Of a stretch of 24,610 bases of DNA, positions 613 to 14,264 are shown in pieces. The first letter of the stretch is position 1; each line of letters begins with the position of its first letter. The position numbers and the translations under genes were made by a program. Below the pieces are notes generated by a model. That model was not told the DNA's origin and ran no database searches. It worked only from the letters and a program-made list of their open reading frames with translations. This stretch comes from a virus. The stretch spans positions 1 through 24,610 of the IMG/VR virus record IMGVR_UViG_3300009553_000095. One strand, 5' to 3'.

Positions 613-633
613 CCCGGCAGCATAGCTGCCGGG
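613..633. terminator. Hairpin between the two leftward genes
   Basis: A 9-bp perfect stem (613-621 with 625-633) surrounds a 3-nt loop and lies in the 67-nt gap between the two leftward genes. The plus-strand side is followed by TTTCTCT and the minus-strand side by CCTTTCC, so it may work as a weak terminator or attenuator in either direction. On the minus strand it would reduce expression of the HNH gene relative to the upstream coiled-coil gene. Confidence 0.45.
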
Positions 634-655: not shown

Positions 656-985
656 TTAGGCGGCGAGGTTCTTGCCGGTCGGCAGGCCGACCAGATGGCG
701 GCGCACCAGCGTCGGCACGGTGTGCGCGGCAACATACTGATGCGAAAGTGTCGCACGGTAGTCCGCCTCGGCCTGCTTGAGCACGGCCTTGATCTCGGCG
801 GCCAGCTTGTCGTCGGGCTTGGTCCCGGCCACGTCCGAGATCGTCAGCCGGTAATCCGCGCTCTCGTAGGAGCCTGCCTTGAGGTCGGCGAGGGCGGCTT
901 CGAGCGCCTTCTTCTGGAGTTCGAGCTTGCCGATCTCAGTCTTGAGGGCGGCGTAGGCGTCGATCGTGGCGGTGAGGTTAGTCAT
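656..985 (-). CDS. Small coiled-coil phage protein (109 aa), unknown function
   Basis: I do not recognise a named family. The start is set at the ATG at 985 rather than the longer frame from 1072, because GGAG lies about 8 nt upstream of it and the longer frame would run through the promoter-operator region. The N-terminal half is a probable helical coiled coil (charged and leucine/alanine-rich, about residues 5-45). The C-terminal half contains a mixed strand-helix region and a basic VRRH segment. It is the first gene of the leftward transcript that diverges from the 1156-1598 pair, which fits an early or regulatory accessory role. No catalytic motif is visible. Confidence 0.7.
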   Translation of the reverse strand: MTNLTATIDAYAALKTEIGKLELQKKALEAALADLKAGSYESADYRLTISDVAGTKPDDKLAAEIKAVLKQAEADYRATLSHQYVAAHTVPTLVRRHLVGLPTGKNLAA

Positions 986-1019
986 GTGATGGCTCCACCC
1001 GGTTATTTCCGGTAACGCT

Positions 1020-1048
1020 GTTATCGGACCACTGGTCATATTTGTCAA
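1020..1048 (-). promoter_or_regulatory. Leftward promoter candidate overlapping operator copy 1
   Basis: On the minus strand a perfect TTGACA (1048-1043) is followed after 17 nt by GATAAC (1025-1020), a sigma70-like pair with a moderate -10. The operator-like 17-bp repeat at 1021-1037 fills much of the spacer and part of the -10, so a bound protein would block this promoter. It would drive the gene starting at 985. Confidence 0.5.
1021..1037 (+). repeat. Operator-like 17-bp repeat, copy 1
   Basis: The sequence TTATCGGACCACTGGTC is repeated exactly at 1088-1104 in the same orientation. Its core GACCA-C-TGGTC is a perfect 5-bp inverted repeat around one central base, as expected for a dimeric DNA-binding protein. 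Both copies sit in promoter spacers of the divergent region. Confidence 0.65.
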
Positions 1049-1081
1049 TGGCTCTTTTTCAATTATTTTCAAAAAACGTCG

Positions 1082-1111
1082 TTGACTTTATCGGACCACT
1101 GGTCTCATTAT
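1082..1111 (+). promoter_or_regulatory. Rightward promoter candidate overlapping operator copy 2
   Basis: TTGACT (1082-1087) is a good -35. The -10 could be CATTAT (1106-1111, 18-nt spacer); TATACT at 1109-1114 is a better hexamer but lies 21 nt away. The second 17-bp operator copy directly abuts the -35 and fills the spacer. It would drive the gene starting at 1156. Confidence 0.5.
1088..1104 (+). repeat. Operator-like 17-bp repeat, copy 2
   Basis: This is an exact copy of the repeat at 1021-1037, 67 bp away (about 6.4 helical turns). The dyad core GACCACTGGTC lies at 1094-1104. The matched placement relative to two divergent -35 elements suggests coordinated repression of both arms. Confidence 0.65.
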
Positions 1112-1155
1112 ACTTTTGAACGGAATTACCCGTTCGAAAAGGGAAGTCCATCACA

Positions 1156-1368
1156 ATGACCACGCAGACCCACCACTTTTACGATCGCGACCGCCACGGC
1201 GACGACATCCACAGCGTCGTCGGCACCGCCATGCTGGCGACCGGGCGCTACAAGGCTTGGCTGATAGAAGGCCCCGGCGACGACCTCGACGTCCGCGGCT
1301 ACGGCCATACCGTGCTGTCGGCGATTGCGGATCTCAACGCCGCCATCGCGAAGGGTGAGGCGGCATGA
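1156..1368 (+). CDS. Hypothetical phage protein (70 aa), first gene of the rightward pair
   Basis: It starts with an ATG preceded by a purine-rich GGGAAG about 9 nt upstream, and it is the first gene after the rightward promoter-operator. The product is acidic and small, with an N-terminal run of His and Asp (residues 6-18), a central strand-like region (32-48) and a C-terminal helix ending in AIAKGEAA. No known domain is recognised. The stop overlaps the ATG of the next gene (ATGA), so the two are probably co-translated. Because it is directly controlled by the operator region, it may be an early regulatory or host-takeover protein, but that is inferred from position only. Confidence 0.7.
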   Translation: MTTQTHHFYDRDRHGDDIHSVVGTAMLATGRYKAWLIEGPGDDLDVRGYGHTVLSAIADLNAAIAKGEAA

Positions 1369-1598
1369 GCTGGCAGCACACCCGCAGCATGTCGCCAGAG
1401 CAGCTCGCTCTGGCGATCGCCACGCTCAAGATGAAGCCCGCGGCGGCCTCGCGCTTCGTCGGCTGCTCCTACCGGCAGATGGTGCGGATGCTCAAAGGCG
1501 AGCGTGAAGTGCCGGTTCCGACCTCGCTGCTGCTCGGCTGCATGGTGGCGCACCGCCTGCGACCACTGGTGCCACGCCGGGTGCCCGGCACCTACTAG
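1365..1598 (+). CDS. Small helix-turn-helix protein, candidate Cro/repressor-like regulator (77 aa)
   Basis: Residues about 12-50 read as a compact HTH of the kind found in small phage regulators. The pattern is a helix (SPEQLALAIATLKM), a turn, the segment AAASRFVGCSYRQMVRML, then GEREVPVPTSLLL, closely echoing the common phage form in which an LGVxxRTVRRW-type recognition helix is followed by GEREIPxPVAxLL. The C-terminus is short and basic. It overlaps the preceding gene by ATGA and is followed by the strong terminator at 1618-1655. It is the only DNA-binding candidate near the operators at 1021 and 1088, so it is the best guess for the protein that binds them. The link to those sites is inference. 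Confidence 0.7.
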   Translation: MSWQHTRSMSPEQLALAIATLKMKPAAASRFVGCSYRQMVRMLKGEREVPVPTSLLLGCMVAHRLRPLVPRRVPGTY

Positions 1599-1617: not shown

Positions 1618-1655
1618 AAAGCGCATATGCTCCGCCCGGCGCATATGCGCTTTTT
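1618..1655 (+). terminator. Strong intrinsic terminator after the HTH gene
   Basis: A perfect 13-bp stem (1618-1630 with 1641-1653) encloses a 10-nt loop, and the descending arm runs into TTTTT (1651-1655). The stem contains the palindrome GCATATGC on each arm. It ends only 17 nt before the first ATG of the following long operon. Confidence 0.85.
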
Positions 1656-1840: not shown

Positions 1841-2088
1841 CGACACCGAAACGGAAAAGCGTTTCTGACCTCGATCTCAAGTCGCTGGCGCGGGCGCACA
1901 CCACGGTGGCTATTCAGGCGCTGTCCGGCATCGCTCAGAACGGGCAACAGGAGGCCGCTCGCGTCAGCGCCAGCGTGGCATTGCTCGATCGCGGCTGGGG
2001 CAAGCCTAATCAACCGCACGATGCGAAGCTCGACGGCGAGCTGCGCATCACGATCAGGAAATTACTCACCAAGGAGGAAGGCGAATGA
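1837..2088 (+). CDS. Conserved phage protein in small-terminase position (83 aa)
   Basis: The pattern ARAHTTVAIQALSGIAQNG followed by ARVSASVALLDRGWGKP is common in alphaproteobacterial phage proteins just before terminase: an alpha-helical unit predicting loss-tolerant helical repeats, with the signature ALLDRGxGKP. It resembles the C-terminal part of DUF5681-type proteins. The position, three genes before TerL with ATGA coupling on both sides, makes it a small-terminase or DNA-recognition candidate. However, it is short for a TerS and I see no clear HTH, so the specific role stays open. The N-terminus is basic (TPKRKS). Confidence 0.7.
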   Translation: MTTPKRKSVSDLDLKSLARAHTTVAIQALSGIAQNGQQEAARVSASVALLDRGWGKPNQPHDAKLDGELRITIRKLLTKEEGE

Positions 2089-2306
2089 GCACGACCGAAG
2101 GCATGTCGATCGGCGCGCAGCGTGTGCGCGAGAGTTTCAATCCGAGTAAGGACAACATGGTCGATAAGATCAAGCGGTACACCGCCGATCTGATCGACCT
2201 CTGCGAAGATCTAAAACACCTTGAGCCGCGGCTCGCGAGCCTCGCGCAGACCGCTTACGAAGAGGCCGCGATGTGGGCCGTGAAGGCGGCCACAACGCAG
2301 AAATGA
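2085..2306 (+). CDS. Acb2/Tad1-like anti-CBASS cyclic-nucleotide sponge candidate (73 aa)
   Basis: The product matches from memory the small helical family annotated as Acb2/Tad1 domain (DUF7681). It has a conserved front VRESFNPSK (residues 14-22), then VDKIKRYTADLIDLCEDL (26-43), and the diagnostic back helix with AQTAYEEAAMWAVKAAT (about 54-70). Family members are helical hairpins that form hexamers and bind cyclic di- and trinucleotides, starving CBASS effectors of their signal. The NPS and IKxxTA segments and the EEAAMW helix are the parts shared between the rhizobial-phage and Pseudomonas-phage versions as I recall them. It overlaps both neighbours by ATGA and lies in a run of small genes before TerL. 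Family membership is well supported by motif; ligand binding here is inferred. A different small helical bundle remains possible. Confidence 0.78.
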   Translation: MSTTEGMSIGAQRVRESFNPSKDNMVDKIKRYTADLIDLCEDLKHLEPRLASLAQTAYEEAAMWAVKAATTQK

Positions 2307-4150: not shown

Positions 4151-4332
4151 CGCAAGCGCAGCTCGACCTCGCGCATAAGACGATCGGCGACCTCGGCCAC
4201 TGCGTCCGCGCCATGGAGCAGTACGGCAACGCCAAGATCGCAGACAAGATGCGGATCGCCATCTCGCTGTTGCAGGCGATGCTTGACGAGAACGAGCAGC
4301 TCGCGCTGCCACTGGAGAAAACAGATGGCTGA
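4147..4332 (+). CDS. Small helical protein, paralogue A1 (61 aa)
   Basis: A helical protein with the pattern DLAHKTIGDLGHC (residues 7-19), EQYGN (24-28) and a leucine-rich helix ending in MLDENEQ. It has a clear paralogue at 4612-4794 that aligns along its whole length, about two thirds identical by eye, with the conserved core GDLGHCV, EQYGN and ending EKTDG. It overlaps the preceding gene by ATGA and the following chimeric frame by 8 nt. No domain is recognised. Conservation of both copies suggests a small portal- or packaging-associated role. Confidence 0.7.
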   Translation: MTQAQLDLAHKTIGDLGHCVRAMEQYGNAKIADKMRIAISLLQAMLDENEQLALPLEKTDG

Positions 4333-4458
4333 CACCGCAGCTGCCCAGCACGAGGACGTGCGCCACGACGATCTGGAGTTCGACGTTGACATCCAGCCAG
4401 CCAAGAAAGCCAAGGCGTGGCTGAACCGGCTGGAGGAGAGCGAGGACGCGTTCGATCG
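4147..4458 (+). repeat. Diverged direct repeat, left copy (gene A + portal 5' end)
   Basis: This 312-nt segment aligns with 4612-4920: the whole small gene A plus the first ~45 codons of portal. The small-gene part is clearly diverged, while the portal part differs at only about four of 45 residues. The homology stops at 4458, where the sequence switches to a terminase tail. Confidence 0.85.
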
Positions 4459-4615: not shown

Positions 4616-4794
4616 CCCGCGCCCAGATCGATCTCGCCCACAGGACGGTCGGCGACCTCGGCCACTGCGTCACGGTGATCGAGCAGTACGGCAACGAGCG
4701 CATCGCGGGCTGCATGCGCGTAGCGGCCTCTTTGTTGCAACAGATGGTCGACGAGAACGAGACGGCAGAGCAAGCGGAGAAAACAGATGGCTGA
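4612..4794 (+). CDS. Small helical protein, paralogue A2 (60 aa)
   Basis: The start is the ATG at 4612, which overlaps the preceding stop as ATGA; longer upstream frames are shadows. The protein aligns end to end with the product of 4147-4332 (shared DLAHxTxGDLGHCV, EQYGN, SLLQ, DENE and EKTDG). It is adjacent to the intact portal gene, overlapping it by 8 nt exactly as copy A1 overlaps the chimeric portal fragment, so this copy belongs to the resident portal's own context. The function is unknown. Confidence 0.7.
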   Translation: MTRAQIDLAHRTVGDLGHCVTVIEQYGNERIAGCMRVAASLLQQMVDENETAEQAEKTDG

Positions 4795-4920
4795 CACCGC
4801 GGCTGCCCAGCACGAAGATGTTCGCCACGACGATCTGGAGTTTGACCCGGAGATCCAGCCTGCGAAGAAAAGCAAGGCGTGGCTCAACCGCTTGCAGGAG
4901 AGCGAGGACGCGTTCGATCG
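4612..4920 (+). repeat. Diverged direct repeat, right copy (gene A + portal 5' end)
   Basis: This is the partner of 4147-4458, 3 nt shorter because gene A2 is one codon shorter. After 4920 it continues into the intact portal. Confidence 0.85.
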
Positions 4921-7192
4921 CTGGCACGACCACTGCGACAACATCGACAAGATCTATGCGAGCCTCGAACGCTTAGCCACGAACAGCACGTCCGGCCGCG
5001 CTATCCGCGATCGCGAGTTCGCGATGTTCTGGGCCAATTGCGAGGTGATCAAGCCCACGATCTACGCCAGCGCGCCTATCCCGGTGGTGACGCCAAAATT
5101 CAAGGACAGGAGGCCGGTCTACCAAGAGGCCAGCGAGGTGATGGAGCGATGCTGCATCGTCGCGTTCGACTTAACCCGCATCGACGACCTGATGAAGCTG
5201 GTGCGCGATGACTTAGCCCTGATCGGCCGCGGCGTGGCGTGGTGCAGATACGAGAGCGCAGGTGAAGGCCGCTATTCCAGCGAGCGCGTCTGCATCGACT
5301 TCAAGGGCCGCCGCGACTTCCTGCACTCGCTCAGCTCCAACTGGCGCGAGGTGACATGGGTCGCCGCAGCCAGCTACCTGACGCGATCGGAAGCGCGTCG
5401 CCGCTTCCGCAAGCACTCAGGAGACACCTACCAGAGCGCCGAATACAAGGTTGACAAGGACGCCAAGGAGATCGGCGGCGGCGACAACCGCGAGCGCGCC
5501 AAGTTTTGGGAGATCTGGAGCAAGGGCGACAAGAAGGTGATCTGGGTCGCGCACGGCTGCGAGGACATCCTCGACGAGGCCGAGCCGCATCTGGAGCTGC
5601 AAAACTACTTCCCGTGCCCAAGACCTGCATATGGGACCGTGCAGCGCGGCTCGCTGATCCCTGTCCCCGACATCATGCAGTACAAGGACCAGCTGGATGA
5701 AATAAACGCCTTGACCGCGAAGATCCACGCGCTGTCCGACGCGCTGGAAGCCAAAGGCTTCTACCCTGCCGGCGGCGGCGAGCTCGAGGAGGCGATCAAC
5801 GCCGCGATGGCGACGCACACCAGCGGCCGCTTGCTGGTGCCGATCAGCAATTGGGCCTCCTTCGGCAACACCAAGGAAGTCATCGTCTGGATGCCGATCG
5901 ACATGATCGCGACGACGATCACCGCGCTGGTGATGCTGCGCAAGCAGATCATCGAGGACATCTACCAGATCACCGGCATGGCCGACATCATGCGCGGAGA
6001 TACTGACCCTAATGAGACATTGGGCGCGCAGAAGCTGAAGAACCAGTACGGCACCACGCGGATAAGGGACAAGCAGGCCGAGCTGGTGCGGCTGTCTCGC
6101 GATCTGGTCGAGATCGCCAGCGAGATCATGACCGAAAAGTTCGACGACGCCACGCTGATACAGATGTCGCAGACGCAGCTGCGCACAGAGGACATGATCG
6201 AGCGCGACGCGCAGCAGATCGAGCAGGCGTTGCAGCAGATCCAGCAGCAGGCCATGCAGCAGATCCAGCAGGCGCAGCAACAGAAGCGATTAGCTCCACC
6301 GCAGCAGGCTCCGGGCGGCGCACCTCCGGCTGACCCTGCTGCTGGCGGCGCTGCACCGGGCGCGCCCCAACCCCCTGCCGACCCGGTGCAGCAGATTGTC
6401 GAGCAGGCGCAGCAGCAAATGCAGCAGGGCATGACGCAGCTGCAACAGCTCAAGGACGAGGTGACGATCGAGCAGGTGCTCTATTTCCTGAAGGACACGC
6501 GCGCGAAGTCGTTCACGCTCGACATCGAGACCGACAGCACGATCATGGCGGACGAGGACGCCGAGAAACAGCGCCGCACCGAGTTCACGCAGGTCTTAGG
6601 AGGGCTTCTACCGCAGCTCGCGCAGATGATCCAAGCCGACGCCAAGACCGCGCAATTCTGCGGCGAGGTGCTCAAGTTCGCCACGGCACCGTTCCGCGCA
6701 GGCCGCTCGCTCGACGGCGCGATCGACGATCTCGTCGAGCAGATGAAGGACAAGGCGAACCAGCCGCAGGCGACGGATCCGGCGACGCAGCAGGCGCAGA
6801 CAGCGTTGCAGATCGAAGGCATCAAGGCGCAGGTCGCAAGAGAGAAGCTGCAGCAGGACGCGGCCAATGACCGGGCGAAGCTCGAACAGGCCGATCGCCA
6901 TAAGCAGTGGGAACTGGCGAACCAGCGCCAGATCGCGGGCGTCAAGGCGCAGAGCGAAGTCGGCGAGCAGCAGGCTGATATGGCAGTTCAAGGCCAGAAG
7001 ATGCAGGAGAGCCACGAAGCGCATCAGGCGAACCTCCTAGCTAATCAGCAGAAGATGGCGATCGAGGCGCAAAAGGCGCAGGCGCAGCTGGCGTCGCACC
7101 AAGCCAAGCAGCAGGACATGGCGGCGCGCGCATCCGAGCGGCAGGAAGCGATGCGCATGAAGGCGATGCAGCCGCGGCCGGGGGGCATATGA
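4787..7192 (+). CDS. Portal protein, large P22-like type (801 aa)
   Basis: This is the likely dodecameric portal through which DNA is packaged and ejected. Assignment rests on its place after TerL, its size, and a body typical of podovirus portals: a mixed helix-strand region about residues 60-440 including NCEVIKPTIYASAP, a VRDDLALIGRGVAWCRYE strand region, an EEAINAAM helix and the stem-like QIIEDIYQITGMADIMRG. The C-terminal third is unusual in composition: about residues 470-560 are Gln-rich with a Pro/Ala/Gly linker (QQAPGGAPPADPAAGG), and about 655-795 form a long Gln/Ala/Lys coiled coil, comparable to the barrel of P22 portal. RBS GGAG lies about 9 nt before the ATG. The stop overlaps the next gene by ATGA. 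Confidence 0.88.
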   Translation: MADTAAAQHEDVRHDDLEFDPEIQPAKKSKAWLNRLQESEDAFDRWHDHCDNIDKIYASLERLATNSTSGRAIRDREFAMFWANCEVIKPTIYASAPIPVVTPKFKDRRPVYQEASEVMERCCIVAFDLTRIDDLMKLVRDDLALIGRGVAWCRYESAGEGRYSSERVCIDFKGRRDFLHSLSSNWREVTWVAAASYLTRSEARRRFRKHSGDTYQSAEYKVDKDAKEIGGGDNRERAKFWEIWSKGDKKVIWVAHGCEDILDEAEPHLELQNYFPCPRPAYGTVQRGSLIPVPDIMQYKDQLDEINALTAKIHALSDALEAKGFYPAGGGELEEAINAAMATHTSGRLLVPISNWASFGNTKEVIVWMPIDMIATTITALVMLRKQIIEDIYQITGMADIMRGDTDPNETLGAQKLKNQYGTTRIRDKQAELVRLSRDLVEIASEIMTEKFDDATLIQMSQTQLRTEDMIERDAQQIEQALQQIQQQAMQQIQQAQQQKRLAPPQQAPGGAPPADPAAGGAAPGAPQPPADPVQQIVEQAQQQMQQGMTQLQQLKDEVTIEQVLYFLKDTRAKSFTLDIETDSTIMADEDAEKQRRTEFTQVLGGLLPQLAQMIQADAKTAQFCGEVLKFATAPFRAGRSLDGAIDDLVEQMKDKANQPQATDPATQQAQTALQIEGIKAQVAREKLQQDAANDRAKLEQADRHKQWELANQRQIAGVKAQSEVGEQQADMAVQGQKMQESHEAHQANLLANQQKMAIEAQKAQAQLASHQAKQQDMAARASERQEAMRMKAMQPRPGGI

Positions 7193-7404
7193 GCAGCTCC
7201 AGCAACATCACGACACGCCCCTCGATGCGCGCGCTGACGCGCGCGTCGGATGACGCGCTGGTGCTGGTCAACATGGCTTTTGTTAGAATGATCACGCAGC
7301 AGTCCGCGGGCGTGCTGCGGCTACACTTCGGCCCGCAGGGCAACGACAACATCGACGTCAAGCTGGTGACCATAGACGAATTGCAGAGACAGATGGTGAC
7401 CTGA
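7189..7404 (+). CDS. Hypothetical phage protein (71 aa)
   Basis: The product has a disordered Ser/Thr-rich N-terminus (MSSSSNITTRPS), a helix (about 12-40) and a strand-turn-strand piece LRLHFGPQGNDNIDVKLV (about 43-60). I do not recognise a family. It is coupled to the portal by ATGA and to the next gene by a one-base TGATG overlap, so it is co-translated with the portal region and may be a minor head or head-tail component. Confidence 0.65.
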   Translation: MSSSSNITTRPSMRALTRASDDALVLVNMAFVRMITQQSAGVLRLHFGPQGNDNIDVKLVTIDELQRQMVT

Positions 7405-8927
7405 TGGGCACTAACGACGAGTATGGTTATAGCGACCTCGGCGTGCTCATCGGCGCAACGCCCGGTGAGCCGAACGTCACCGACTACGGGCAGGCCGACC
7501 TGCGGCCTTTCGCGATGGGCGCGTTGGCGCAGCATCGGGATTATCAACCTACTGCCGCGCAGGGCACGGACCTGTGGGGCTACCAGATGGGCGGCCGCGT
7601 TGTCCCGCCGCAAGACGTCGAGAAAGCCATGAACATGGCGATGTCGTTCTCCGGCGGCGGCCTCAAGGTCAAAGAAGTTGCTCCGGCGCTAGGCTCCGTG
7701 CTGAACCCACGCTTGCGCGCGCAAGCCGACGCGGTGCGCGGCACCTATCCGCAATACGCCGAGACGTATCCCGAGGTCGGACCTCCGGCGCTGATGAGCA
7801 AGCTGCCTGACCCTAAAAACCCCGGTAAGTACCTGCTCAAGCCCGGACCCGAAGTGCCGTACAGCTCGATGGAGGAGGCGCTGGCGATGGACGCGCGGCC
7901 CGATCACTTCTTGAGCAAGAAGAAGCTGCCGCAAGTCGAGGAGTTTGCAGACGCGCGCAACACCATTCAGAAGGATCTGGACCTGCACGGCTACACGCCG
8001 TACTTCGACCCGGCGAAGCGGTTCGACGTGAAGGGTGAACACTACGGACCGTTCGCGGACACCGGCACCGCAGCGGCACCAGCCACAGCCAAGACCGACG
8101 CCGAGTGGTTCGCTAAATACGGCACGGCGGAGAACCGTGCCAAGTTGCAGGCTGGTTTCGCCGAGGGCAAGAACGTGCCCGAGAGCGCCAACTGGTATCA
8201 CATGGGCCAGCTGGAGCGCGAGTACGTCAAGGAGTTCGGCGAGAAAGCAGGCCGCGAGGCGTTCAAGCGCGAGTTTGGTGACATGATGGCCGCGACGACC
8301 GGCGGCGCTGACCCTTATAATAACTTCCTGATGTCGCAGTATGCCAATGTCGCTGCGAAGAAGGGGGAGCGGCTGGCTACGCGCGCGTATGAACTTCCGT
8401 TCCCGATCGGAGGCCGCTACGCGTCTGGCAATCTCGAACAGGCGCAGAAATATATCGACGCGGGAATGAAGGGGTTCGATCCGGCGCAGAACCCGAAACG
8501 GTACGACTTTTCTAGCGCGTTCGCTGGCAACAAGAATGCGTCAACGATTGACGAACAAATGTATGGCGCGCTGCGCCCAGTTACGACAAAAGCCTCTGTC
8601 GGTTTGCCAGAGTGGTACGGCCCGGCTACGCGCGTCGCGCGAGAGGAAGCTGCCAAGGCTGGCGTTGACGCGCGCGGCTTTCAAGATGTTGCATGGGCGG
8701 GCCTGAAAAAGGGCAAGACCGGCGAAGGCTTCGACTATGCGGGTCCGATGATCAACACGATCAACCGCTCGATCGAAACCACGCACAGGCTCACCGGCAT
8801 GCCGCGCGAGGAGATCGTGCGTCGCGGACTGATCCGCAAAGAGATACCCATGTATGGCATCGGCGGTGCAACCGCGATGGGTTCACTGGCTTCACAAGGC
8901 GACTACCAACCCGAGGAGAAAATGTAA
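7404..8927 (+). CDS. DUF7178-like phage protein after the portal (507 aa)
   Basis: A large protein with a flexible front (about 1-230, rich in Pro, Gly and short helices) and a helical C-terminal domain about 255-490. The C-terminal domain resembles DUF7178-type domains: WYHMGQLEREY (about 263), a following GDMMAATTGGADPYNNF segment (about 291), a central YDFSSAFAGNKNASTIDEQM block (about 369-389) in the place where those proteins carry TxDxxMARAL, and a late helix ARGFQDVAWAGLK. DUF7178 proteins are common in tailed phages; their activity is not known to me. The protein may be a virion component, since it lies in the structural operon. It is coupled to both neighbours by one-base overlaps. 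Confidence 0.55.
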   Translation: MGTNDEYGYSDLGVLIGATPGEPNVTDYGQADLRPFAMGALAQHRDYQPTAAQGTDLWGYQMGGRVVPPQDVEKAMNMAMSFSGGGLKVKEVAPALGSVLNPRLRAQADAVRGTYPQYAETYPEVGPPALMSKLPDPKNPGKYLLKPGPEVPYSSMEEALAMDARPDHFLSKKKLPQVEEFADARNTIQKDLDLHGYTPYFDPAKRFDVKGEHYGPFADTGTAAAPATAKTDAEWFAKYGTAENRAKLQAGFAEGKNVPESANWYHMGQLEREYVKEFGEKAGREAFKREFGDMMAATTGGADPYNNFLMSQYANVAAKKGERLATRAYELPFPIGGRYASGNLEQAQKYIDAGMKGFDPAQNPKRYDFSSAFAGNKNASTIDEQMYGALRPVTTKASVGLPEWYGPATRVAREEAAKAGVDARGFQDVAWAGLKKGKTGEGFDYAGPMINTINRSIETTHRLTGMPREEIVRRGLIRKEIPMYGIGGATAMGSLASQGDYQPEEKM

Positions 8928-10412: not shown

Positions 10413-10732
10413 CGATCGAGCTGGAGGAGTTCGAGCCGGGCCGCTGGCGGGTCCGGCGCGAGAGGCACGAAAAGCAGCGGGCCGAAAACATGCCGCTGCC
10501 TTACGTCATCAGCGACACCATGGAGCCTGTCGAGCAGGTCGACGGCAGGTTCTACACGTCCAAGCGCGCGTTCCGCGCGGTCGGCCGGGCCAATGGCTTG
10601 ATCGAAGTCGGCACTTCAAAGCTGGAGCCGAAGCGGCGTGCGACAGACAGTCCAGAGCACAGGAGACAGATAAGGGACACGTTAGGCAAAGTAGTCTCTG
10701 AGTACAAACAAGGGCGGCGGCCTAAGATCTAG
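10409..10732 (+). CDS. Conserved phage protein before the scaffold (107 aa)
   Basis: The N-terminal half is rich in Arg/Glu (RWRVRRERHEKQR, about 12-24). Residues about 48-70 carry FYTSKRAFRAVGRANGLIEVG, a pattern common to small proteins that lie between portal and capsid genes in short-tailed phages (SKxxFRxxxxxxGxxEVG), probably a DNA- or protein-binding helix. The tail is basic (KQGRRPKI). It starts by ATGA overlap. Its 3' end overlaps by 11 nt the 3' end of the convergent homing nuclease gene. Confidence 0.65.
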   Translation: MTIELEEFEPGRWRVRRERHEKQRAENMPLPYVISDTMEPVEQVDGRFYTSKRAFRAVGRANGLIEVGTSKLEPKRRATDSPEHRRQIRDTLGKVVSEYKQGRRPKI

Positions 10733-11198
10733 GTCGTCTGTTTTGCGATTGTTGGGCGCGCGTGGCCCAGCGAATGTTGCCGGGTTCGTAGTTTCCGTCG
10801 CTGTTCAATCTATCAATGGTCGTGCCATGTGGACGAGGCCCTACATCGCTCAAGAACGTCGGAAAGTCGTTCCACCGCTTGCACACGGTGATGCCGCGTC
10901 CACCGTAATACTTGAAATCCGTGGAGTTTGGGTCGGAGCAGCGTTGACGCATCCTTTTCCAGACGGAGTACAGCGGATGTCGAGGCGTGTCCCTTCTGGC
11001 ATGGCCGTGGCGGGCACCCTGCCAGCAACCGCAAGAAGTTATGACACCCTGTCGGAGTGGTCCGCCTCTGACAACCGACGTCGCGCCGCAGTCGCATTGG
11101 CACAGCCATGTTTTCTGCCCGTTGCGCACAGTTTCGGTCATCGCGACGACGACCAGTCGCCCAAAACGCTGTCCGGTGATGTCTTTAAAGGAACCCAT
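10722..11198 (-). CDS. Homing-type endonuclease, degenerate HNH with zinc ribbon (158 aa)
   Basis: This is a free-standing mobile nuclease candidate, and the only minus-strand gene inside the late operon. The start at 11198 is preferred over the longer frame from 11237, because TAAGG lies about 6 nt upstream. Residues 31-58 form a Cys zinc ribbon (CQCDCG and SCGC). The rest is the widespread phage family with YYGGRGITVCKRW (98-109), FLSDVGPRPHG (115-125) and TIDRLNSDGNYEPGNIRWAT (127-146), then a basic end. Compared with HNH_3 enzymes, the first catalytic His is replaced (IDR rather than DH), so it may cut by another residue or only bind DNA. Its orientation and its convergent overlap with the 107-aa gene suggest a recent insertion. 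Confidence 0.8.
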   Translation of the reverse strand: MGSFKDITGQRFGRLVVVAMTETVRNGQKTWLCQCDCGATSVVRGGPLRQGVITSCGCWQGARHGHARRDTPRHPLYSVWKRMRQRCSDPNSTDFKYYGGRGITVCKRWNDFPTFLSDVGPRPHGTTIDRLNSDGNYEPGNIRWATRAQQSQNRRPRS

Positions 11199-11272
11199 AC
11201 CAAACCTTACTGAGGTTGGTACTAAAGTGCAACTCATAACGGTCCAACCGGCCGTAAAAGAAGGAAATTATC

Positions 11273-13607: not shown

Positions 13608-13629
13608 CAACCCCCTTTAGTGGGGGTTG
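13608..13629 (+). terminator. Hairpin after the major capsid gene
   Basis: An 8-bp stem (13608-13615 with 13622-13629) closes a 6-nt loop directly after the capsid stop. There is no T-run behind it, so it is more likely an RNA stability or processing element, or a Rho-assisted stop, than a full intrinsic terminator. Confidence 0.5.
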
Positions 13630-13640
13630 ACTACGAACCT

Positions 13641-13683
13641 CCGGTCTGGCGATCTGGTCTGGTTAACCAACCAGACCGGAGAG
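13641..13683 (+). promoter_or_regulatory. Alternative hairpins in front of the homing nuclease
   Basis: Two mutually exclusive 9-bp stems can form: 13656-13664 with 13669-13677 (4-nt loop), or 13641-13649 with 13671-13679 (21-nt loop). The putative ribosome binding site GGAGAG (13678-13683) starts inside or right beside the 3' arm. This resembles translation control of phage homing endonucleases by RNA structure. Confidence 0.5.
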
Positions 13684-13688
13684 TTCAA

Positions 13689-14264
13689 ATGAAAGCCTAT
13701 TCGCTTCCCTCGAAAGAGGTTCTCGATCAGTTGCTGAAGTACGATCCTGAGACAGGCAAGTTTTTGTGGAGGTTAAGACCTGTGACGATGTTCACGATCG
13801 GAAGGTCGACAAAGAAGCCTCGTTCGGCCGAGCACGCCTGTAATCAATGGAATAGCCGCTGGGCGGGAAAGCCAGCGATGACCAAAAGTCATGACGGCTA
13901 CTGGTACGGTCGTATCTTTTACCGGCAGGTACTGGCGCATCGTGTAGCGCACAAAATAATGACAGGCCAAGACCCGATCGAGATAGATCACATCGACGGG
14001 GATCGCGGAAATAACAAGTGGTCCAACCTGCGCGATGGGACACGATCGGACAATCTTCGAAACATCGCGTTAAAGCGCAACAATACGTCTGGGCACCACG
14101 GTGTGACGTTCAGTAAGCGTCAACAGAAATGGATCGCTCAGATCATTCTAGGTTCATTTGACAGCAAGGAAGAAGCCGTAGCCGCGCGCCGTAAATACGA
14201 GGCGTTGCTCGGTTACCATCCCAACCACGGACGTGACGCTGTGATAACTAACCCGGCCGCCTGA
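13689..14264 (+). CDS. HNH homing endonuclease with AP2 DNA-binding domain (191 aa)
   Basis: A mobile endonuclease. The start at 13689 follows GGAGAG by 5 nt; the longer frame from 13620 would run through the hairpins. Residues about 66-128 are an HNH_3 domain: GYWYGRI, then LAHRVAH (82-88), then EIDHIDGDRGNN (98-109) with the catalytic-type DH and following Asn residues, and NLRDGTRSDN. Residues about 133-180 are an AP2-type DNA-binding domain with SGHHGVTFSKRQQKWIAQI and EEAVAARRKYEALLGYH. It is inserted between the capsid gene and the next structural gene, in the same orientation. Such enzymes cut alleles lacking them and spread by repair. Confidence 0.9.
   Translation: MKAYSLPSKEVLDQLLKYDPETGKFLWRLRPVTMFTIGRSTKKPRSAEHACNQWNSRWAGKPAMTKSHDGYWYGRIFYRQVLAHRVAHKIMTGQDPIEIDHIDGDRGNNKWSNLRDGTRSDNLRNIALKRNNTSGHHGVTFSKRQQKWIAQIILGSFDSKEEAVAARRKYEALLGYHPNHGRDAVITNPAA

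Follow-up and report, generated by a model that had tools for sequence, protein, structure and literature searches.

A probable autorepressor cassette with one operator in each of two divergent promoters in a tailed-phage record

HigA2 and MqsA antitoxins autorepress their own operon. For the Aca repressors of acr-aca operons, the published sites are placed in the core promoter (PMC9410906; PMC8434428), and scrambling of these sites is reported to have abolished repression in most cases (PMC9410906). AcaFinder is credited with 36 further high-confidence Aca families in addition to 12 published ones (PMC9765179), and acr loci are described as clustering with other anti-defence genes (PMC7648647). 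Our searches of open-access papers brought up no account of an Aca-type repressor that serves two divergent arms. Here we consider it likely that a phage locus with two divergent promoters constitutes a self-limiting, two-armed, accessory cassette in which a 77-aa HTH protein acts as autorepressor of both promoters. This reading draws on the sites, their placement, their conservation, and the constant presence of the HTH gene, all of which are observed, and on the HTH fold, which is predicted.

The window analysed, a viral record of 24,610 bases taken at its full length, encodes the packaging and head module of a tailed phage, with PHROG matches to the terminase large subunit, the portal, and the major head protein. 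Judged by the terminase and portal proteins, Rhizobium phage RHph_I3_18 and Bradyrhizobium phage ppBjS10J-1 come closest among well-placed named phages (34-56 percent identity). Located among the head genes are an HNH-type endonuclease ORF on the opposite strand (10722-11237, minus) and a second ORF that is HNH-like by eye (13620-14264, plus). A tandem near-duplicate (4184-4458 and 4649-4920), in which exact repeats reach 25 bases, contains a small ORF together with the portal gene's 5' end. The two-way promoter region is the 170-base gap between orf109 (985-656) and orf70 (1156-1368), with a GC content of 42 percent versus 64 percent for the record. An HNH ORF (136-603) neighbours the cassette, and downstream, at a distance of a few genes, the terminase is encoded. 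The features of the cassette are as follows.

613-633, minus strand: terminator-like hairpin 3' of orf109, followed by CCTTTCC
656-985, minus strand: orf109, first leftward gene; conserved, with a predicted long helix and strands
1020-1048, minus strand: putative leftward promoter P_L, TTGACA-17-GATAAC, with an operator within the spacer; arranged alike in relatives
1026-1038, no strand assigned: left operator, 13-mer GGACCACTGGTCA, a 6-1-6 dyad with 5 of 6 pairs, adjoining the leftward -10
1082-1111, plus strand: putative rightward promoter P_R, TTGACT-18-CATTAT, with an operator within the spacer
1093-1105, no strand assigned: right operator, 13-mer GGACCACTGGTCT, a dyad with 5 of 6 pairs, adjoining the rightward -10
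1156-1368, plus strand: orf70, first rightward gene, encoding a small protein
1365-1598, plus strand: gene of the 77-aa HTH protein, the proposed autorepressor; its start overlaps the orf70 stop
1618-1655, plus strand: hairpin closing the rightward unit, a 13-pair stem and T run (-23.5 kcal/mol, z -4.78)

The cassette would thus read as a self-contained unit of about 1 kb: from left to right, a terminator, orf109 transcribed leftward from P_L with its operator O_L, the operator O_R with P_R reading rightward, orf70, the HTH gene, and a second terminator. An exact 17-bp direct repeat bearing a dyad, claimed from an initial sequence-only reading, is indeed present: the 17-mer TTATCGGACCACTGGTC has two exact copies (1021-1037 and 1088-1104) and no third in the window, where base composition predicts approximately 0.0004 exact direct repeats of at least 17 bases within 100 bp. 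Its core, GACCACTGGTC, is found exactly at 1027-1037 and 1094-1104 only, and both 13-mers stop exactly where the -10 starts, in each arm of the window. The two opposing promoters proposed in that reading, with a dyad in each spacer, were likewise recovered with the hexamers and spacers (17 and 18) it had given. A 10/11 match at 1561 was considered as a third site and rejected, as it lies in the coding end of the 77-aa HTH gene and its first base is gone in G001 through a codon change. Two contigs with a single copy of the 17-mer each (L003 and L005) were rejected as relatives; they are other kinds of contig with repeat-rich sequence and have no such promoter pair.

By themselves, the hexamers are weak evidence for promoters. 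A consensus promoter scan of positions 1-2600 returned two sites, with an expectation of 0.5 from shuffles; the rightward promoter above is among them (9/12 matches) and the leftward promoter is not. It is the comparative evidence, rather than the window alone, that renders the feature convincing at the level of sequence. Among 33 hand-chosen arms, including those of the window, 23 have their site within 1 bp of the best-scoring -10 (one row, the left arm of G004b, is a script mis-hit and was scored as a miss); in G002, G003, and G007 the -10 of the right arm is poor. Since the spacers measure 16-18 bp behind TTGAC-type boxes, repression by occlusion fits.

Scans of viral contigs with orf109 yielded 18 loci on 17 contigs besides the window, and when the gaps were read one by one, most modules were found to share the plan of a dyad in both arms. 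Sites of the GGACCANTGGTCC type, with small changes, occur in the window, G001, G002, G003, G004 (two modules), G006, G007, G008, G011, G012, and G014. The dyads of G005, G009, G013, and G016/G017 are spelt differently, with arms that resemble each other (the likeness being weakest in G016), and for G010 and G015 (2 of the 18 records) no convincing paired site could be named; these two are left out of the operator tables (covariation, spacing, and -10 distance). Imperfect sites are found in the right arm of G006, in G012, and in G016. G017, with a gap identical to that of G016 over the length compared, was excluded from alignment A2 and from the promoter, shuffle, operator, spacing, and -10 distance analyses. 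Centre-to-centre distances between sites range from 31 to 91 and equal 67 in 7 of 16 modules. When the best 13-mer shared by the two gap halves was compared with 100 dinucleotide shuffles (G006a, consisting of one arm only, was left out), 11 of the 18 modules reached a p of 0.01 or below, G013 gave 0.04, and the remaining six gave 0.06-0.44; in G005 and G009 the best shared 13-mer is the -35 region, not the operator. Ten records were searched whole, of which 8 match GGACCANTGGTCC at up to 2 mismatches, and sites with 0 or 1 mismatch are confined to the cassette gaps. The pattern GGACCRNTGGTCC-N(1-12)-GTCAATGGG returned 7 stretches from viral contigs; they fall in 6 contigs, each of which had been identified before as a cassette carrier. 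The 42-kb phage record G004 contains two copies of orf109 (L033 251-568 and L035, 41345-41674), each with its own divergent module, and its early region also encodes a homologue of the GcrA cell-cycle regulator (L033 8555-9007, minus strand; PF07750, E 6.3e-16).

The sequence-only reading had also stated that no third operator is present. This holds for the gap of the window, in which no third site is found at up to 2 mismatches, and fails as a statement about all relatives: one module of G004 has three sites, and the right arm of G006 has two GGTCC-type sites. The third G004 site, located upstream of the right -35, bears on a controller-like circuit, in which the HTH protein would activate first and repress later in the manner of the C proteins of restriction-modification systems. 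The predicted fold also matches C.Kpn2I (Foldseek rank 4, VIA Z 6.9). Such C proteins are encoded next to a restriction endonuclease and a methyltransferase; the observation here that bears on this is the HNH ORF at 136-603. The window, however, has its sites only between -35 and -10, with nothing further in the gap, and the spacers are already near-optimal, as fits occlusion; an activator circuit of this type appears unlikely. Repeats serving a role other than transcription, such as replication or packaging, would agree with the proximity of the terminase gene, yet the position of the sites is tied to promoter boxes and not to packaging genes, and the second module of G004 lies away from the terminase, making such a role highly improbable. 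Repression of both promoters through their operators is the preferred reading.

A homologue of the 77-aa HTH protein was identified in 18 of 18 records, within approximately 1.2 kb of the orf109 start, even on contigs of 4-7 kb. Among named phages the HTH was detected in one record, Bradyrhizobium phage ppBeUSDA76-2. The AlphaFold model (mean pLDDT 87.6) has five helices, and its closest folds by VIA Z are Aca2 (9.6), the MqsA C-terminal domain (9.5), HigA2 (9.5), Aca10 (9.0), and Aca1 (8.9), while the best Foldseek match is HigA2 (E 0.006). Sequence profiles gave weak matches, the best of which include Aca1 and HigA (E 0.057-0.082); those to Aca1/Aca2 chains have E 0.057-1.3. The Pfam models Xre-like-HTH and HTH_31 each match 14 of 17 family members at E values up to 1, and no named Aca model is among the NCBIfam matches of the family. 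The modelled fold likeness is common to many XRE-type HTH domains; it is not specific to Aca and proves no function. Of the earlier proposal that one dimeric regulator serves both arms, the two operators, one per divergent promoter, are in place, and the 77-aa HTH protein is, judging from its sequence, the probable dimeric regulator.

The sites could be real and bound by another protein, either a host regulator or a different phage DNA-binding protein, such as the 101-aa HTH-like protein (HTH-like by eye only) or the GcrA homologue of G004; G004 does encode other likely DNA-binding proteins. Against this stand the occurrence of the 77-aa family in every record, including contigs of 4-7 kb, the shift in site spelling in both arms together between phages, and the coupling of a site with the 77-aa family on a bacterial contig (L091, below), and we regard a different binder as improbable.

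In bacterial genomes, the pattern GGACCRNTGGTCC-N(1-12)-GTCAATGGG was found in 4 stretches, versus about three expected by chance (a hand estimate). Three of these (L089, L090, and L092), a number close to the chance expectation, have no HTH homologue in the stretch examined. In the fourth, L091, from a Silicimonas metagenome contig, GGACCATTGGTCC adjoins TATGAT, 18 bases after TTGCAT, and is followed by an 81-aa ORF. The stop of this ORF overlaps the start of the gene for a 70-aa relative of the 77-aa HTH protein (best E 8e-9 when six loci were searched). No leftward promoter is evident in L091, and the match to GTCAATGGG may therefore be fortuitous. A chance pairing of site and HTH in L091 is itself unlikely because HTH relatives are rare, occurring in 2 of 295 genomes of the family to which the Silicimonas contig belongs. 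Further on, the opposite strand of L091 encodes a C-terminal part of Cas3 (PF22590, E 1.3e-33); the stretch 5141-7487 spans the operator, the small ORF, the HTH gene, and this nearby Cas3 C-terminal ORF. The Silicimonas genome carries another copy of the HTH gene (L098), upstream of which no intact site was found. In another genome of the family (L097), two near-identical, differently spelt dyads (at about 997-1050 of the reverse complement) stand before a gene and an HTH homologue, and one of them is beside a -10-like box by eye.

Site spelling varies between phages in both arms together, and operators were compared with the recognition helix. By eye in the alignment, residue 40 (window numbering) is R, V, or A with GGACC-type sites and H or N otherwise, and the simple correlation between operator and recognition helix was reached by none of 5,000 permutations. 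A partial Mantel test with the rest of the protein removed was not significant (partial r 0.18, p 0.087, with hand-chosen operators). The six HTH rows that lack GGACC-type sites fall together on one side of a tree branch (support 88/79), with one change accounting for these rows in 86 percent of bootstrap trees, and may, from their sequences, reflect a single event. Because the groups separate in the tree and the partial Mantel test is not significant, we do not claim coevolution.

The products of the flanking genes have no useful family match, and no known acr was recognised among them (phrogs, pfam, and padloc searches of orf70 and orf109). The model of the 109-aa orf109 protein contains no HTH, weakly resembles uncharacterised phage proteins and, again weakly, a Gp157-type protein, and has no useful fold match in the PDB. 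No relatives of orf109 were detected in the bacterial genomes scanned or in named phages, and none of orf70 in the viral contigs scanned; by eye, the small rightward genes of G005 and G011 have endings similar to that of orf70. The terminator-like hairpins appear, from sequence, to bound the cassette. A fixed-rule script found a hairpin 3' of the HTH gene in 6 of 17 loci (G000, G001, G002, G007, G010, and G012), and other loci of the GGACC group have a like hairpin with a poorer T run by eye. The terminator scan of the window missed the hairpin at 1618-1655, the loop of which is longer than the tool permits, and hairpins like that at 613-633 are not commoner in the surveyed stretch than in shuffles. 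Beyond the 1618-1655 hairpin lies a 73-aa ORF (2085-2306, plus strand) that matches the Acb2/Tad1 hairpin domain (PF24729, E 1.5e-12) and likely encodes an anti-CBASS cyclic-nucleotide sponge. A gene of this type is above the cut-off in 2 of the 18 records only, namely the window and G014, where it is downstream of the HTH gene.

Divergent promoters, operators in common, and a small HTH protein are also what a lysis-lysogeny switch of the CI/Cro kind would present, with the HTH protein as Cro or CI. Each module, however, has a single HTH gene, and two opposing repressors were not found; a phage integrase was detected in 0 of 18 records and a resolvase in 0 of the 12 searched (many of the records being fragments), and in the related Rhizobium phage RHph_I3_18, an annotated repressor C and an HTH gene occur elsewhere on the genome. 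We therefore judge a CI/Cro switch to be quite unlikely. A bistable switch requires two opposing regulators. The term "switch" in the sequence-only reading consequently has to be dropped, as there is one regulator gene, on one arm, while the 109-aa protein of the other arm has no predicted HTH and no antagonist was found.

For the autorepressor cassette, the simplest circuit is a negative feedback lowering both arms, because the regulator is made from one of the arms it would control, and since both promoters carry the same site, the two arms should fall together. Upon entry of the phage DNA, both promoters would be open to the host housekeeping RNA polymerase. Once made, a dimer of the HTH protein would, to judge from geometry, conservation, and fold, occupy the 13-bp dyad between the -35 and -10 of each promoter, and in doing so would exclude polymerase from both, turning off its own unit and orf109 together. 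The small flanking proteins would be expected to appear in a pulse that ends when both promoters are shut down, a timing that would follow the logic of Aca repressors of anti-CRISPR operons.

A counter-defence role of the small proteins is a guess, based on the likeness to acr-aca and on the Acb2/Tad1-type gene further right. With considerable doubt, we raise the broader possibility that the HTH proteins form an undescribed Aca-like repressor family, and the cassette a two-way counter-defence unit in phages akin to those of alphaproteobacteria. One HTH protein would time two divergent sets of inhibitors, site and protein would have drifted into several specificities, some phages would hold two cassettes, and the small genes would encode new inhibitors of host immunity. 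If true, the operator would be a DNA handle for counter-defence genes in phages without a known acr as bait, and the small genes that follow such a site would become candidates, whichever arm they are on; L091, found by its site alone, brought up a regulator and a small gene with a C-terminal part of cas3 nearby. The joint change of the sites in both arms would then also provide a natural series on how the specificity of a small HTH protein changes.

Several known systems share parts of this arrangement. Several small early genes of SIRV2 share one regulatory sequence and are presumed to be shut off by Aca8 (PMC11065993), whereas that system has archaeal promoter elements and a winged HTH, and its sites stand before single genes along the genome termini and not in one two-way promoter. 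In the ArdK regulon of plasmid R388, one small repressor acts on several promoters, all of which contain a conserved repeat (PMC9723621); unlike the cassette, it involves a KorA family protein, direct repeats, and a plasmid. The HigA2 and MqsA antitoxin DNA-binding domains are, together with Aca proteins, among the closest folds to the HTH model, whereas no toxin partner was recognised in the cassette. The lambda-type CI/Cro control region resembles the cassette in having operators in divergent promoters; the cassette differs in its single regulator and single site per arm, from which bistability is not expected. With the acr-aca operons of Aca1, Aca2, and Aca10, the cassette shares a small HTH gene, here that of a proposed repressor, behind small genes in a short operon, a phage origin of these genes, the fold match, and, as seen in its sequence, an inverted repeat lying within the core promoter of the unit that contains the HTH gene. 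It differs from them in that no known acr was recognised and in having two divergent arms under the same site; as read from its layout, the arrangement works like an acr-aca operon to which a second, divergent arm has been added.
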